Source: Myxococcota bacterium (GTDB lineage: Bacteria > Myxococcota > B64-G9). Taken from it: 64,000 bases of DNA. The stretch is taken from positions 1-64,000 of the forward strand of contig JAKLGA010000016.1 in NCBI GenBank assembly GCA_022710975.1, in the 5' to 3' direction. A model generated the notes under the pieces. That model had not been told where the DNA came from, did no database searches, and was given only the letters and a program-made list of their open reading frames with translations. Shown in pieces: positions 609 through 41,152 of the stretch (positions are counted from its first letter, which is position 1; each line of letters starts with the position of its first letter). The position numbers and the translations under genes were made by a program.

Positions 609-976
609 GCCCTGCGCCTCCTGAGCTTTAGCCAGCCCAGCCCGAGCAAGAGCCCCAACCACGTTATCTCACCCGGCCCTGCCTGGGCGCAGCCCGTGTT
701 CCCATGTTCGTCTTCCCCTGGGCAGGCATCGAAGGGCTCGGGCTCGGTGGTGACGCAGACGCACGCAGCCCGGTCGCACCACTCGCCGTCTGCGCAGTCC
801 GCATCCTCGAGGCAGGCGCACGCCGAGGCGTCCCAGCAGGAGCAGTTCACGCAGCGGTACCCCGTCGGGCAGTCCGCGTCCGCGGAACACATCGGCCCCG
901 CGGCCGAGGCTGGGCTCACGAGAAGCGTGAGCAGCCCAACCAGCAAACCCGCCAGGAGAATCCCGAACCCCCGCAT
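605..976 (-). CDS. Secreted Cys-rich protein with MYXO-CTERM-like tail (cassette copy 1)
   Basis: A 123-residue protein with a cleavable signal peptide ending near SPASA, a central segment with about a dozen cysteines in short CxxDADC-type spacings, then a Cys, a hydrophobic helix and a terminal Arg cluster (KLRRRRA). That tail matches the MYXO-CTERM sorting-signal pattern, so cell-surface anchoring after processing is expected. The ATG at 976 follows GGAGGTCGGGGGC, and a promoter is visible at 1016-1044. The gene is the first of a two-gene unit with the lipoprotein at 120-608. Signal peptide and tail resemble the protein at 18155-18772, but the central cargo does not. Confidence 0.8.
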   Translation of the reverse strand: MRGFGILLAGLLVGLLTLLVSPASAAGPMCSADADCPTGYRCVNCSCWDASACACLEDADCADGEWCDRAACVCVTTEPEPFDACPGEDEHGNTGCAQAGPGEITWLGLLLGLGWLKLRRRRA

Positions 977-1015
977 GCCCCCGACCTCCGTGCTGCGAAG
1001 CCGCCTGCAACTCCG

Positions 1016-1044
1016 AGCCTACCAGCGCCGACCGCAGCCGACAA
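1016..1044 (-). promoter_or_regulatory. Sigma-70-type promoter for the cassette at 120-976
   Basis: Read on the minus strand this is TTGTCG, 17 bases, then TAGGCT preceded by GCTGG. The same layout occurs before the paralogous cassette (18087-18115) and before the gene at 23157. The distance to the ATG at 976 leaves a leader of about 33 bases containing GGAGGTCGGGG. Confidence 0.6.
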
Positions 1045-1059
1045 GGCGAGCCTCCATGG

Positions 1060-13957: not shown

Positions 13958-14995
13958 TTGAAGCTCCGAGCTGTTCGCCTTCTGACCCTCATGGCCGCCC
14001 TGGCGCTGGCCCTGCCCCTGGGCTGCGACGAGGGCACGAGTTCACCGGACGCGGCGGTCGAGGACGGAGACGGAGAGGCGGATGCCGGGCACGACGGGGC
14101 GTCGGATGGTGTGGACGAGCTTGATGCCGCAGATGGCGCCGATGAGGCCCAGCCACTGCCCTCGGTCTGTCCGCCCTGCGTCCCGGACTGCACGGATAAG
14201 CAGTGCGGCTCGGACGGGTGCGGAGGGGAGTGCGAGAACTGCCTCGAGACCGGCCAAGGGAATGTCTGCATGGGCAACAGGTGCAGCTTTGCGGACTGGG
14301 GTGACTGCTTCACACACAAGTGCGGCCTGGATCCCATGTTTGGCACGTTGCTCTGCGGCACCTGCCCTGTGGGTTGGGACTGCAATTGGAATGTCGGACT
14401 GTGTGACTCGCCCACAGGCGAATGCAGTGGCGTGCCCGAGACCGGGCTCTGCCTGTCCGGCCGCGCGGTCACCTGCCAGGCAGGCGAGCTCTTCTACCAG
14501 GACTGCGAGTTCGAGGCCTGCCGCCTCGACCCGGCCACCCTGGAGGCCGGCTGCGAGGAGGTGCCCTGCCTGGCCCGTTGCTTCGGCCGCACCTGCGGCG
14601 ACGACGGCTGCGGCGGGAGCTGCGGGAGCTGCGCTGCCGGCCGGACCTGTCAGGCCGACCTCGGGGTGTGTGTGCCCGAGAGCGGCTGCGGGGAAGTCGG
14701 TGCGGCCGGGGAGTGCCAGGGCCACACCCTCGTGACCTGCGAGGCGGGTGCCATCCAGACCGAGGCCTGCCTTCCGGAGGGCAAGCTCTGTGTCTCTGCG
14801 GAGCCCGGAACCCGGGCGGGTTGTTGCATGCCGAAGGGCGACGAGCCCTGCGGCGACCTGCCTGCCTACAACCAGTGCGAGGGCACCTACATCCTCTCCT
14901 GCGACCACGGGGCGCTCAGGCTCGAGAACTGCCGGTGGGTTGACAGCTCGTTCTGCAAGCGCACCGGGATGCAGTCCCTGGCCTGCGGGTTCTGA
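13958..14995 (+). CDS. Cys-rich lipoprotein, array member 4 (TTG start)
   Basis: A 345-residue lipoprotein with lipobox PLGC, an Asp/Glu/Ala-rich linker to about residue 70, then Cys-knot-like units (CVPDCTDKQCGSDGCGGEC and a second with CGDDGCGGSCGSC) separated by other disulfide-rich segments. TTG 13958 is the only plausible start; GGAGGG lies 8 bases upstream and no nearby in-frame ATG exists. This start supports the TTG choice in members 2 and 3. It is the last of the four closely spaced genes. The 14996-15415 gap carries a hairpin-array repeat before the fifth paralogue. Confidence 0.85.
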   Translation: MKLRAVRLLTLMAALALALPLGCDEGTSSPDAAVEDGDGEADAGHDGASDGVDELDAADGADEAQPLPSVCPPCVPDCTDKQCGSDGCGGECENCLETGQGNVCMGNRCSFADWGDCFTHKCGLDPMFGTLLCGTCPVGWDCNWNVGLCDSPTGECSGVPETGLCLSGRAVTCQAGELFYQDCEFEACRLDPATLEAGCEEVPCLARCFGRTCGDDGCGGSCGSCAAGRTCQADLGVCVPESGCGEVGAAGECQGHTLVTCEAGAIQTEACLPEGKLCVSAEPGTRAGCCMPKGDEPCGDLPAYNQCEGTYILSCDHGALRLENCRWVDSSFCKRTGMQSLACGF

Positions 14996-15065
14996 TGACG
15001 GCGCCGCGCTCGCGGGTGCCAACCACCTGCAACGAGTTGTCCGCACGGTAGACGATTCGTTTGCT

Positions 15066-15317
15066 GACCTTCCGTGCCTGGCTCTCTCAGGAATTTCTTT
15101 TGAGGTGAAGGCAGGAGGGGAGCCTGGCTTGACTGCCTTCGAGGCCCTTCCGCTTCTACCCTCGAGGAACTGCCCTGAGTGGACCAGGTTTCCAAGCGCC
15201 TCGACGAGGCCGGGTTTCCAAGCGCCAATGGGGCGCGCAGGAAACCAAGGTTTCCAAGCACCTCTGGTGCTCAGGAAACCTTGCCCAGAGGGGGCACACG
15301 GGCGATCGGCAAACACC
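15066..15317. repeat. Hairpin-array repeat element, copy 1
   Basis: About 250 bp in the 14996-15415 gap. It opens with GACCTTCCGTGCCTGGCTCT, continues through an arm conserved with copy 2 (17729-18048), then has three GGTTTCC and two GGAAACC blocks. These form perfect hairpins: 15213-15246 (inner stem GCGCC/GGCGC) and 15246-15283 (CAAGGTTTCC/GGAAACCTTG with inner stem GCACC/GGTGC). It ends in GGGGCACACGG-CGATC-GCAAAC. No coding potential. The rest of the gap is leader for the gene at 15416. Confidence 0.8.
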
Positions 15318-15415
15318 CTGCTGCGATTCGCAGTGGCCACGCTTCAGCCCCGGGGCCTTGCACGCTGGGCGCCGGTGGGTGGAAGCTGGGGCCAGATCCT
15401 CCGGGAGGGATGGGC

Positions 15416-17695
15416 ATGCAGGTCCGCACCGCTTTCCTTGGGATGCTCGTCGCCGGCCTCCTCGCCGGCTGCGACTCGAAGCCCGAGCCTGGTCCCTGCG
15501 TCCCAGCCTGCGCCGGGATGCAGTGCGGCGACGACGGCTGCGGGGGGAGCTGTGGCTCCTGCCGGCCGGATGAGCTCTGCGACGCGAACTCCTTCTGCGT
15601 CTGCGCCCCGGACTGCGCCGGCAAGGAGTGCGGTGACAACGGCTGCGGGCAGACCTGCGGCGCGTGCCCGCCGGGCGAGCGCTGCGATCCAGGGGGTCAG
15701 TGTCAGCCGGGCTGTACACCGGACTGCGACGCCAGGGATTGCGGCGACGACGGCTGTGGTGGGAGCTGCGGCGACTGCCTGGACTGCGCCAGGGCGCCAG
15801 CCCCGGAGCGCTGCATCGTCGACCGGGGCTGGTGCGAGTGGCAGTGTTGCCCGGACTGCACGGGGCAGGAGTGCGGGTACGACGGCTGTGGGGGGAGCTG
15901 CGGCACCTGCGCGGAGGGTGAGCAGTGCAGTGAATCGGGCCACTGCGTCGAGGCGCCTTGCTGCGAAGGCCTGGAGTGCGGGCCGGATCCTTGCCTCGGC
16001 AGGAGCTGCGGGACCTGCGGGCACGCTGCGATTTGCAGCCCTCAGGGCCAGTGCGAGCCGATCGAGATCTGCCCCGACCTCTCGGGCACCTACGAGCTCA
16101 CCAACTACTGCCTCATCGAATTCTGGGGTGATGTCGTGATCGAACAGGTCGGCTGCGCGATCACCTACACCATGGACGCGGTCGAGTGCACGGGCCGGCT
16201 CGACGCGCAGCTCGATCTCGAGGTGGAGTGCGGCGGCCTGGGCTTCCCTTGCCACGGGAAGGCCAGCCTGACGACCCCCTTCTGGATCGTGTGCTCGCCC
16301 CAGTGCTCCTTCATCCTGCAGCGCCATGACCTGGGCGCGGTCTGCACCTCCCACCGGGATCCGGTCTGCACGGCCGAGGGCGAGCTGTGCGGCGTGGTGG
16401 TGAACGATGGAGGGCTGGCGACTCGCTGCGTCCGGATCCTCCCCGAGGGCCGCGAGCCCGGGTCCTTCTGCGACGAGGGGGCGGGCCTGCTGTGCGTGAA
16501 CTCCCTGTGCGTGGACCACTCCTGCGGCGCCGTGTGCGTGGACGACCTGGACTGCGTGGGCTACCCGGGGACATCGTGCCAGAACGTGCTCTACACCCTG
16601 GAAGGGGTGACCGGCTCCATCCGGAGCTGCACCCAGGTGAACGCCGGGGAGACCGCCTGCCGCCGCACCCCCGACTGCGCGCCGTCGAGGGTATGCTCCT
16701 TCCGCGCGACCGACGACGACGTGCTCGAGGTCTGCCGCCCGCCCAACCCGGGCGGCTTCCCGCCCGGCTTGGCCTGCACCCAGGGCTTCGAGTGCGAGAC
16801 CGGCCTGTGCCTGTGCGGGGCGGCGCTGTGCGCGGTCGGGGACCAGGGCTTCTGCTCGGAGCTCTGCCTGGACTCCCTCGACTGCGTGCAGGGCTCGGAG
16901 TGCGGGCCGGTGATGGTCCAGGACCTCGGCGGCGGCGCGCACGAGCTGTCCGCCTGCGTGCGCGATCCGGATCCGGACGCCTGTGGGCGGCACGCCGACT
17001 GCCCGGCTGGCCGCTCCTGCCAGGTGTTCCTCGACGCGGACGGCCTGTCGCTCGTCACCGAGTGCCAGTACGGGTCCGGCCCCGGCCACGACAACACGGG
17101 CGAAGCGTGCGCTGGCCCGACCGATTGCTTCTCCGTGTGGTGCGGGAACTGGGGCTACTGCCTGGGGGTGTGCGTCTCGGACGCCGACTGCCCCACCTTC
17201 GACACCGCCACGGCCTGCCTGACGGACGCCAACTGCGAGCTGGGCACCTTGTGCGAGGCAGGCCTGTGCCGGCGGGTGTTCGGCTGCACGACGTACGTCT
17301 TCTACCTGGGCGACGACGGCTCGGGTCAGCCGGTGTACGACACGACCAACCTGTGCAGGCCGGAGAGGCACCCCTGCGCCCTCGACGCGGACTGCCGGCC
17401 GGGCGAGGCCTGCCGGCTGGACACCAACTCGACCGCCACCGCCGCGGTCTACGTGTGCGACGCGGGCGGTCCGGGCGCCGGCCAGCTCGGAGCGAGCTGC
17501 GAGGCGGGCGCGGACGTGTGCTGGACCGGGCATTGCCTGATCGAGGGCGAGGGCGGCCCGGGCCTCGAGTACTGCACCCGGGCCTGCGTGACCGACGCCG
17601 ACTGCGAGCCCATGGACACGTACTCTTGCCAGGCCATCCGCGTGGACGTGCGCCCGGGCTTCGTGTCCTTCGTCCCGGCCTGCGCGAGGCGCTGA
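15416..17695 (+). CDS. Large Cys-rich modular lipoprotein, array member 5
   Basis: A 759-residue lipoprotein with lipobox LAGC-DSK. Residues about 25-205 are five Cys-knot-like units (CxPDCxGxxCGxDGCGGSCGxC). Residues about 215-300 form a beta-rich domain starting SGTYELTNYC with paired cysteines, resembling small beta-barrels. The remainder is a long series of CxxDADC-type disulfide units. ATG 15416 aligns with the start of array member 1 and follows GGGAGGG at 7 bases. The leader GGTGGAAGCT-GG-CAGATCCTCC is shared with 8500-8530. It is separated from the first four genes by a hairpin-array repeat, so it probably has its own promoter. Confidence 0.85.
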   Translation: MQVRTAFLGMLVAGLLAGCDSKPEPGPCVPACAGMQCGDDGCGGSCGSCRPDELCDANSFCVCAPDCAGKECGDNGCGQTCGACPPGERCDPGGQCQPGCTPDCDARDCGDDGCGGSCGDCLDCARAPAPERCIVDRGWCEWQCCPDCTGQECGYDGCGGSCGTCAEGEQCSESGHCVEAPCCEGLECGPDPCLGRSCGTCGHAAICSPQGQCEPIEICPDLSGTYELTNYCLIEFWGDVVIEQVGCAITYTMDAVECTGRLDAQLDLEVECGGLGFPCHGKASLTTPFWIVCSPQCSFILQRHDLGAVCTSHRDPVCTAEGELCGVVVNDGGLATRCVRILPEGREPGSFCDEGAGLLCVNSLCVDHSCGAVCVDDLDCVGYPGTSCQNVLYTLEGVTGSIRSCTQVNAGETACRRTPDCAPSRVCSFRATDDDVLEVCRPPNPGGFPPGLACTQGFECETGLCLCGAALCAVGDQGFCSELCLDSLDCVQGSECGPVMVQDLGGGAHELSACVRDPDPDACGRHADCPAGRSCQVFLDADGLSLVTECQYGSGPGHDNTGEACAGPTDCFSVWCGNWGYCLGVCVSDADCPTFDTATACLTDANCELGTLCEAGLCRRVFGCTTYVFYLGDDGSGQPVYDTTNLCRPERHPCALDADCRPGEACRLDTNSTATAAVYVCDAGGPGAGQLGASCEAGADVCWTGHCLIEGEGGPGLEYCTRACVTDADCEPMDTYSCQAIRVDVRPGFVSFVPACARR

Positions 17696-17728
17696 ACTAT
17701 ACCCAGGCAGCGCCGCCACTCATTGGAT

Positions 17729-18048
17729 GACCTTCCGTGCCTGGCTCTCTCAGGAGTTTCTCTTATGGTGAAGGCAGGAGGGGAAGTTGCCCAGGCGGGC
17801 TGGCTCGCTTCTAGGCCCTCCTACTTCTACCCTCGAGGAACTGCCCGGAGTGGACCAGGTTTCCAAGCGCTGAAAGCAAGGTTTCCAAGCGACCCTGGGG
17901 CAAGGTTTCCAAGCGCCCCGACAAGGGGCGCGCAGGAAACCTTGCAGGAAACCCAGCCCCCGAAAAGGGGCGCGCAGGAAACCCAGCCCAGAGGGGTGTG
18001 CGCAGGAAACCTAGCCCAGAGGGGGCACACGGACGATCTGCAAACGCC
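17729..18048. repeat. Hairpin-array repeat element, copy 2
   Basis: About 320 bp in the 17696-18154 gap, homologous to 15066-15317 but with more repeat blocks: three GGTTTCC (17858, 17880, 17904) followed by four GGAAACC (17935, 17947, 17977, 18005). The strongest hairpin is 17901-17944: CAAGGTTTCC, inner stem GCGCCCC, loop GACAA, GGGGCGC, then GGAAACCTTG. The element ends with GGGGGCACACGGACGATCTG. No gene is visible here. Confidence 0.8.
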
Positions 18049-18086
18049 CGGCCCTGCGCTCATTGGGGCATTCATTGGGGCCGGCC

Positions 18087-18115
18087 TTGTCGGCCTCGGT
18101 TGGCGCTGGTAGTCT
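18087..18115 (+). promoter_or_regulatory. Sigma-70-type promoter for cassette copy 2
   Basis: TTGTCG, 17 bases, TAGTCT preceded by GCTGG. It is conserved in sequence and position with the promoter of cassette copy 1 (1016-1044, minus). The downstream leader to ATG 18155 is also conserved. Confidence 0.6.
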
Positions 18116-18154
18116 CGGAGTTGCAGACGGCTTCGCAGCACGGAGGTCGGGGAC

Positions 18155-18772
18155 ATGCGGGGGCTCGGGATTCTCCTGGTGGGTTTGCTGGTTCTCCTCG
18201 CCGCCACCGCTCGCGCGGACGTGGCCTTCTGCTTTGTCCCGGACTGCTGCTACGACCGGTTCATCCAGGAGCAAGACCTCCAGGACGCGGCCCTGGCGCT
18301 GGCCGAGGTCTCCGAAGTCAGGGCGGGCGGGATCAGCGTGAGCCTGCTGCAGATGCCCATCTACTGCGTGGGCGGGATCGCGTGCTCGCCTGCGGACTTC
18401 CCGGGGGAGCTCATCCTGCCCGGGACCTCGCCTTGCGGGCTGGGTGCCTGGGAGGTCGACACCTTCCAGGTGGGCGACGTCGCGATCTTCCTGGTGGACC
18501 AGGCGAGCGGCTGCCTGCTCGCGGCGATGCCAACGGACGCCGAGGGCGCTGTCTGCAAACAGCAGACGCTGCTGCCCCTGGGGTTCGCGCTGGCGCAAGG
18601 GCTCCGGCCTGAAGATGAATGCAGGACCACCAGCCAAGCGGCGGGCTACTACCTGTGCGATGACCCGGATTCGAACGGCGGCTGCGTGCAGACGGCGGGC
18701 GGGAGTGGAGGGCTGGGGACACTGGCGCTGATGGGGATGGGCTGGTTGACGTTCAGGAGGCGCAGGACATGA
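18155..18772 (+). CDS. Secreted protein with MYXO-CTERM-like tail (cassette copy 2)
   Basis: A 205-residue protein: signal peptide ending near ARA, a central domain of about 150 residues with paired cysteines (CFVPDCC, CVGGIAC, CGL, CLL, CDDP), a Cys in GGCVQTAGGSGG, a hydrophobic helix and the tail TFRRRRT. The ends match the protein at 605-976, including the DNA for the Arg cluster, but the central domain is unrelated in length and sequence. Start ATG 18155 follows GGAGGTCGGGGAC. Its stop overlaps the next start (ATGA). Predicted to be surface-anchored through MYXO-CTERM processing; function unknown. Confidence 0.8.
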   Translation: MRGLGILLVGLLVLLAATARADVAFCFVPDCCYDRFIQEQDLQDAALALAEVSEVRAGGISVSLLQMPIYCVGGIACSPADFPGELILPGTSPCGLGAWEVDTFQVGDVAIFLVDQASGCLLAAMPTDAEGAVCKQQTLLPLGFALAQGLRPEDECRTTSQAAGYYLCDDPDSNGGCVQTAGGSGGLGTLALMGMGWLTFRRRRT

Positions 18773-19342: not shown

Positions 19343-19400
19343 TCGTTGGCCGACCTTCCGTGTCTGGCCGTTCAGGATTCTCTCTCGGGTGAAAACTGGA
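19343..19400. repeat. Short fragment of the hairpin-array repeat family
   Basis: CGTTGGCCGACCTTCCGTGTCTGGCCGTTCAGG-type sequence matches the opening of the elements at 15066 and 17729 without the hairpin array. It lies between the convergent ends of the genes at 19251 and 19419. Confidence 0.5.
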
Positions 19401-39950: not shown

Positions 39951-40004
39951 GCCAGCCACCCAAAGCACAGACGTTTGCCGATCGTCCGTGTGCCTCCACT
40001 CCGG
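39951..40004. repeat. Terminal fragment of hairpin-element family, inverted
   Basis: GCCAGCCACCCAA, then GTTTGCCGATCGTCCGTGTG, then CCACTCCGG. The 22-bp core (39973-39994) is the reverse complement of the end of both hairpin-array elements (15295-15316 and 18025-18046) with one mismatch each. A related copy is at 49098-49153. Confidence 0.65.
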
Positions 40005-40072
40005 GCATCCTTCAAGCGGGTTGCGATCACCTGGCACCTGGGCAAGGGGGGGCGGGAGCCGGAGCTCGCCGC

Positions 40073-41152
40073 CTACCCGAGCGCCTCCTCGTCCAGGGTG
40101 GTGATCTGCAGCCTGGGCTTGCTGCCGCCGGTGTAGCCCACGCGCTTGAGCTCGACCTCCCACTTCCCTCCCGGATGGTTGGTCACCTCCACGAAGGTCG
40201 GCCGCTCGGTGCACCCCTTGCCGGTGTTCGCGTAGATCTCCCTCACCTCGACGCCGGGGTCGTGCTTGTGCTGCTGCGGGTAGGCCTTCACCAGCGCCTC
40301 GTGGGTGTGGCCCAGCACGACGATCTTGAACCTCTCCTGGAGCCGGTAAACATAGGGCGACAGGCCGAAGGCCTCGGCGCGGAGCGCGTCGACCGCCCCG
40401 CCATCACCCTTCGCGGCCTTCCAGAGCTCATACAGGTCCCGGTACCTCGCCTTGACCTCGCCGAGGGTCGGATCCGGCAGGCCCGCGCCCAGCTCCACGA
40501 GGTCCTCGTCCTCGAGCCCGACGAAGCTCATGACCGCGTCCAGGACGGCCTCGGCCAGGGTCTTGCCCTCGTGCTTGGACTTGTGGACGCTCACGAGGTA
40601 GCTGCCGATCGCCGCCGGGCAGTCGGCCGCCTGCGTGGTCTTCGCCAGGACCCGGGTGATGAAGTAGCCGAGCGGGACGCCGTTCACCGGGTCGTGGACC
40701 CGATCGGGGGCGTTGAACATCGCCTCGGCGTGGCCGTGCTCTCCGACCAGGACACCGTCCAGGTAGGAGTTGATGAGCTGCGGGGCCTTGCCGGACCGCG
40801 GGTCGGCCAGGAGGTCGAGGTCCGCCTGGGTCGTGTCCATGTCGTGGTTGCCCTTGACGTAGTACACGTGGGTCAGGTTCCTGAGGCAGCGGTGGAGCAT
40901 GGCCCAGATGGGCCTGTTCGGCGCGGCCCCGATGATGTCCGCGATGGTGGGCGGGACCGCGCCCGCCGGGCACACCCAGTTGTCGAAGAAGTCGCCCAGG
41001 ATGACCAGGTCCTTGACCTCGTCGCCCCGGGTCGAGACCCAACCCAGGAAATCGCACAGCGGCTTCACGTGCTCCTTCCCGAACCACTCGCTCCTGTGCC
41101 GGCGAAGGCCGATGTGGACGTCGCTGATGAAGACCATCTTGTTTGGCGCCAT
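40073..41152 (-). CDS. Calcineurin-like metallophosphoesterase
   Basis: A 359-residue cytoplasmic phosphoesterase with the complete dimetal motif set: D11-x-H13 (SDVHIG), G53-D54-xx-D57 (GDFFDN), G101-N102-H103-D104, a later His (EHGH, about 139-141), and G281-H282-T283-H284. The overall pattern resembles UDP-2,3-diacylglucosamine hydrolase (LpxH/LpxI-type) and related enzymes, but the protein is 100 residues longer than LpxH (helical insert about 160-265), so the substrate is uncertain. ATG 41152 follows AAGGGGAACCCGG. The 41153-41518 gap upstream holds no credible gene. Confidence 0.85.
   Translation of the reverse strand: MAPNKMVFISDVHIGLRRHRSEWFGKEHVKPLCDFLGWVSTRGDEVKDLVILGDFFDNWVCPAGAVPPTIADIIGAAPNRPIWAMLHRCLRNLTHVYYVKGNHDMDTTQADLDLLADPRSGKAPQLINSYLDGVLVGEHGHAEAMFNAPDRVHDPVNGVPLGYFITRVLAKTTQAADCPAAIGSYLVSVHKSKHEGKTLAEAVLDAVMSFVGLEDEDLVELGAGLPDPTLGEVKARYRDLYELWKAAKGDGGAVDALRAEAFGLSPYVYRLQERFKIVVLGHTHEALVKAYPQQHKHDPGVEVREIYANTGKGCTERPTFVEVTNHPGGKWEVELKRVGYTGGSKPRLQITTLDEEALG

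Follow-up and report, generated by a model that had tools for sequence, protein, structure and literature searches.

The two arrays of GGTTTCC and GGAAACC blocks on either side of the fifth Cys-rich lipoprotein gene in the window (the 64,000-nucleotide stretch analyzed here, from contig JAKLGA010000016.1 of a Myxococcota bacterium) lie inside two members, designated copies A and B, of a dispersed palindromic repeat family. This family is probably best explained as a non-coding mobile repeat of the MITE/BIME type that decays neutrally and in which a hairpin module has been expanded by local duplication. The preliminary description of this DNA had treated the arrays as a free-standing hairpin-array element; both copies belong instead to a wider family of intergenic repeats.

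Layout of the window copies

The block counts given in the preliminary description are correct: three forward and two reverse blocks in copy A (3+2, at 15187-15280) and three and four in copy B (3+4, at 17858-18011). GGTTTCC blocks start at 15187, 15213 and 15249 in copy A and at 17858, 17880 and 17904 in copy B, while GGAAACC blocks start at 15240 and 15274 in copy A and at 17935, 17947, 17977 and 18005 in copy B. The three closed hairpins reported there also exist, with their AA and NCA internal loops (Table 1). The copies had been placed correctly, except that each element truly starts approximately 8 bp earlier (at 15058 and 17721), and the conserved "arm" described ahead of the blocks is present but belongs to a larger inverted repeat, of which it forms the left half and whose right end follows the array. 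Both copies sit between co-directional genes.

Table 1. Repeat copies and their parts in the window (positions from the first base of the window; C5 is another contig of the same genome).
Feature	Positions	Strand	Evidence
Copy A, left arm and middle (type M1)	15058..15183	+	CM match 15058-15201; 81-82% identity to C5 copies
Copy A, GGTTTCC/GGAAACC module inside right arm, 3 forward and 2 reverse blocks	15184..15292	+	Absent at paralogous C5:8669-8818
Copy A, closed hairpin, inner stem GCGCC/GGCGC	15213..15246	+	Fold and hairpin-pattern search
Copy A, closed hairpin, inner stem GCACC/GGTGC, with the one G-C to A-T compensated pair of the window	15246..15283	+	Fold and pair counting
Copy A, right end GGCACACGGGCGATCGGCAAACACC, partly complementary to left end	15293..15317	+	
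Copy B, left arm and middle (type M1)	17721..17855	+	CM match 17721-17872
Copy B, module, 3 forward and 4 reverse blocks, predicted nested rod	17856..18023	+	Absent at paralogous C5:6016-6168
Copy B, closed hairpin CAAGGTTTCC..GGAAACCTTG, inner stem GCGCCCC/GGGGCGC	17901..17944	+	Fold and hairpin-pattern search
Copy B, right end GGCACACGGACGATCTGCAAACGCCC	18024..18050	+	
Lone left arm of the same repeat family, without right partner	19344..19399	+	Weak, CM E 0.1
Degenerate repeat copy with clear right end GGCACACGGACGATCGGCAAACG	39969..40083	-	Weak, CM E 0.37 genome-wide

A dispersed two-arm palindromic repeat

A BLAST search of copy B against its own genome (7.13 Mb in 29 contigs, cited here as C1, C5, C8, C14 and so on) gave 23 matches, most of which fell in the left part or the right end instead of the hairpins. 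The repeat unit is intergenic and approximately 140-160 bp long, with two arms of approximately 50 bp that form imperfect inverted repeats (GGGCGTTGGCAGACC... and ...GGATCTGCCAACGCCC; arm consensus approximately GGGCGTTGGCAGACCCTCCGTGTGTGAATCGCTCCGGGCATTCTTCGAGG). Most copies, of approximately 150-160 bp, have no GGTTTCC block at all; in these, a variable middle separates a left arm (CGTTKGCTGACCTTCCGTGCCTGG...) from a right end (GGCACACGGACGATCGGCAAACGCCC). Copies located away from the lipoprotein clusters, such as C1:93637-93793 and C12:49489-49628, form long, almost perfect palindromes, which indicates that the basic design is that of two inverted arms of approximately 50 bp. Both window copies fall in a diverged subfamily of this repeat.

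Using two covariance models and an arm profile, copies were located on most of the contigs searched. The examined stretches contain at least approximately 100 arms, 40 in inverted pairs (approximately 20 elements) and approximately 61 solitary; because these stretches were picked around matches and the genome searches scored candidates only up to a cap, arm and copy counts are minima. A few arms are arranged in tandem (for example, C5:191586-191724 and C24:202717-202852). None of the approximately 100 arms falls within a gene called by our own simple codon-bias gene caller. The wider family adjoins unrelated genes and shows no preference for gene ends over gene starts (33 versus 28 for solitary arms and 20 versus 20 for paired arms). 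A terminator or 3'-end element, at which a cruder gene call had hinted, was rejected on this lack of bias.

As far as the searched genomes show, the repeat is confined to the genome of the window. The preliminary description had looked to covariance-model searches of related genomes, but no copies were found in any of the 192 other genomes searched within the phylum, including 8 of the same family (model R2, with stricter filters), or in 19 related genomes searched with model R1. BLAST against 57 relatives returned nothing convincing (two weak matches with E-values of approximately 3e-4, to the hairpin part only). A 19-base right-end pattern produced three single unrelated matches and no real match in the GTDB species genomes, the family was not found in IMG/VR or in plasmids, and Rfam gave no match up to an E-value of 1 for window positions 14900-18300. 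For myxobacteria, a literature search turned up neither MITEs nor mosaic repeats.

The hairpin module

The module is an imperfect palindrome of approximately 40 bp (GGTTTCC-AA-stem-loop-stem-GCA-GGAAACC) found in only seven loci: both window copies, C5:63.0k, C14:47.8k, C24:145.6k, C28:123.5k and C1:98.2k. In at least four of these (both window copies, C5 and C24), it occupies the same right-arm point, with GTGGA on one side and GGCACACGG on the other. Module copies at C28 and C14 are truncated on one side and agree with this point on the side retained, and the C1 module is immediately beyond the left end of a different repeat copy. Block numbers are 1+1 at C24, C28 and C1, 2+1 at C5, and 3+2 and 3+4 in the window. 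The closed hairpin pattern had four matches across 195 genomes of the phylum, all four in the genome of the window, in which a reversed control of the pattern had none.

Lipoprotein genes and paralogous sites

The fifth Cys-rich lipoprotein gene (window 15410-17695) matches a gene at C5:6190-8571 with approximately 88% identity over 2.4 kb, and the gene together with the left part of copy B has 88% identity to C5:8385-6043. A repeat without the module and with a different type of middle is present both after the C5 gene (C5:6016-6168) and before it (C5:8669-8818), so that paralogous sites gain or lose the module and exchange the repeat. Repeat copies also lie upstream of related lipoprotein leaders on C5, while some paralogous leaders are entirely without one.

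A second paralogue of the fifth gene is located at C5:10735-12481 (77%), and the C5 and C8 lipoprotein clusters are linked by duplication, their order having changed. A leader and signal-peptide stretch (MRGLGIL..) is common to genes with differing bodies (window 942-1055 and 18025-18189, and C5:9521-9673), which suggests that leaders may have been exchanged between secreted-protein genes. The protein encoded at 18155-18769 carries a MYXO-CTERM domain, which points to Myxococcota as the probable phylum. A composite transposon with MYXO-CTERM cargo was considered and rejected: the proteins encoded between arms at C8, C5, C14 and C17 do not form one family over their full length, and only the leader and signal region is partly common to them.

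Folding and covariation

The predicted fold of the copy B array has an energy of -95.6 kcal/mol, compared to a shuffle mean of -70.4 (z -5.5; 0 of 200 shuffles as good), with the three forward blocks pairing in nested fashion with three of the four reverse blocks. For the copy A array, the corresponding values are -60.1 kcal/mol and -47.1 for shuffles (z -3.8).

When the left arm of each of 21 two-armed copies was paired with every right arm (G-U pairs allowed), own pairs scored 19.5 and swapped pairs 19.7 (p = 0.58), and neither subgroup of the 21 copies differed in its own-versus-swapped scores. Because own pairs are no better than swapped ones, the arms appear to change independently. In the seven closed hairpins, inner stems had a mean run of 6.0 with their own partner versus 5.0 with swapped partners (p = 0.019, from a small sample of related hairpins). 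Two-sided changes are found in only two pairs, in one hairpin each (15249-15280 and C28), which is within the shuffle range (82/500). The outer GGTTTCC/GGAAACC stem has one-sided changes only, and in three of the seven hairpins these are uncorrected.

The own-partner preference of the inner stems leaves room for a folding constraint, to which it may point, but this evidence is weak because the hairpins are few and related. There is little evidence of selection on the folded shape itself, and the covariation beyond controls that characterizes a structured RNA was not observed. The covarying stems of the preliminary description depend on just one G-C to A-T exchange in the window, and the big arms of further copies, the homologues by which covariation could be judged, show none. 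Covariation judged from three hairpins is unreliable. Two readings of the stems had been offered: an array built by copying hairpins fits these results, whereas selection on a folded RNA or cruciform is unsupported, given the absence of arm covariation, the hairpin pairs within shuffle range and the one-sided outer stem.

Mobility and relation to known elements

No target-site duplication was detected in the flanks of 23 copies (mean 3.6 versus 3.5 in shuffled flanks, p = 0.37); old repeat copies could have lost such a duplication. Genes between facing arms in the examined stretches include no transposase-like gene, and the search for a linked transposase proposed in the preliminary description gave no cognate candidate among them. 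The genome contains five Y1_Tnp genes, two of which have arms within approximately 1-2 kb. Y1 genes here (IS200/RAYT-type) carry an upstream hairpin of their own, GTGTCCGG..GTGACCGGATTCCGGTCAC, that is distinct from the two-arm repeat, and it is likely that the genes and this hairpin constitute a separate REP system.

The repeat resembles MITEs in being short, non-coding, dispersed in multiple copies between genes, bounded by inverted-repeat ends, and present or absent at paralogous sites. It differs in that target-site duplications were not detected, no parent transposon or cognate transposase was found among the genes between facing arms, and the arms make up most of the element. Like integron attC sites, the copies are imperfect palindromes beside arrayed genes. 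The boxes of attC are RYYYAAC..GTTRRRY; the end boxes of the window repeat (5' GTT..AAC 3') have the opposite sense, on which ground an attC-like site was rejected, and many copies are unconnected with any gene array.

The claim that no element of such design had been described was too strong, as REP/BIME-type repeats are comparable (PMC2817692), though the window repeat falls outside the definition of a REP. REP/BIME sequences are intergenic palindromes of alternating orientation in which palindromy is preserved, and REPs are defined as short, GT(A/G)G-headed palindromes flanking a RAYT gene (PMC2817692). Shared with these are the intergenic palindromes, the single, tandem and inverted arrangements, and the mosaic composites (PMC2817692). 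By contrast, the repeat unit is longer than typical REPs, the Y1 genes of this genome carry a different hairpin, no GT(A/G)G head was found by inspection of the arm consensus or the hairpin block, and palindromy is not kept by complementary changes in the arms (p = 0.58). The repeat is a palindromic interspersed repeat outside any named family.

Origin of the repeat and alternative explanations

In the explanation that we favor, a two-arm repeat would have multiplied between genes by means of a mobiliser, perhaps since lost, and would then have been copied along with duplicated lipoprotein genes, a step supported at two paralogous sites. The repeat would decay by independent mutation of its two arms, while in a small subgroup a second palindrome within the right arm would have grown into arrays by local duplication and nesting of whole or half hairpins. 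We infer growth by hairpin duplication because the numbers of forward and reverse blocks are unequal. As the module is found at the same right-arm point in most of the seven loci, its insertion and expansion are not directly seen, and this counts against the explanation, as do the lack of a target-site duplication above shuffled flanks, the lack of a transposase between facing arms and the own-partner preference of the inner stems. The repeat most likely has no function of its own; lipoprotein genes recombining homologously at its copies would be a possible side effect.

The small hairpins might owe their compensated changes to active hairpin-templated copying (replication slippage or arm-to-arm correction) rather than to selection. 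This process, which is compatible with a mobile repeat and concerns these hairpins only, would account for the unequal block numbers (3+2, 3+4 and 2+1, also 1+1) and for stems that match their own partners best. With only seven loci, outer-stem changes uncorrected in three of seven hairpins and big arms that are uncorrected too, we regard it as a doubtful though real possibility. A structured RNA acting in cis from the leaders or 3' ends of lipoprotein mRNAs (a regulator, stabiliser or terminator with selected stems) would be in keeping with the co-directional genes around both window copies, the arrays that fold far better than shuffles and the copies upstream of related leaders on C5. It is nonetheless unlikely, considering the lack of arm covariation within copies, hairpin covariation within the shuffle range, a wider family with unrelated neighboring genes and no bias toward gene starts or ends, paralogous leaders entirely without the repeat, and the absence of an Rfam match.

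It is similarly improbable that the repeat is a true REP/BIME system mobilised by a Y1 transposase of the RAYT type, as might be proposed from palindromes that lie between genes in either orientation (single, tandem and inverted) and from the arms near two of the five Y1 genes. The examined Y1 genes have another upstream hairpin, on which basis RAYT mobilisation was rejected; the other three genes have no arm in the surrounding 11-12 kb, and the units are long and without a GT(A/G)G-headed short palindrome. There is also a slim chance that the repeat is a lineage-specific two-tier system, in which a mobile palindrome hosts a second one that multiplies in place as hairpins are copied into other hairpins, and the whole, distributed across the secreted lipoprotein gene arrays, serves as a recombination track shuffling these genes and their leaders.

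The case shows that hairpins which strikingly seem to covary in an array can turn out to be a small part of a repeat family dispersed through a genome. If nested hairpins expand in place, the loci with 1+1, 2+1, 3+2 and 3+4 blocks would offer a natural series for the study of palindrome growth, and the repeats may help to shuffle a large family of secreted Cys-rich lipoproteins.

Other repeats in the genome

Four Y1 genes have an upstream hairpin of the GTGACCGGATTCCGGTCAC type (C4:154010, C1:306895, C5:190227 and C3:17283; loci L114, L117, L106 and L115, respectively). This hairpin is degenerate at C3 and C1, and further copies occur elsewhere in the genome. A second palindromic repeat of approximately 80 bp, GTGGGTCTCCTC..GAGGAGACCCAC, is present at approximately 14 places, among them C5:62894-62976, C14:47604-47767 and C5:65011-65192, and is sometimes in tandem. 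At C5:62.9k and C14:47.7k, mosaic joins are found in which this second palindrome replaces the left arm of the two-arm repeat and is joined to its middle or right part. Several solitary arms (L091:10769-10875, L091:1971-2071, L108:3802-3941 and L106 C5:191500-191600) lead into short direct repeats of the GGAACGAGGAACCAGGAAC type. These form a separate low-complexity repeat, which is found repeatedly next to the palindromic family.
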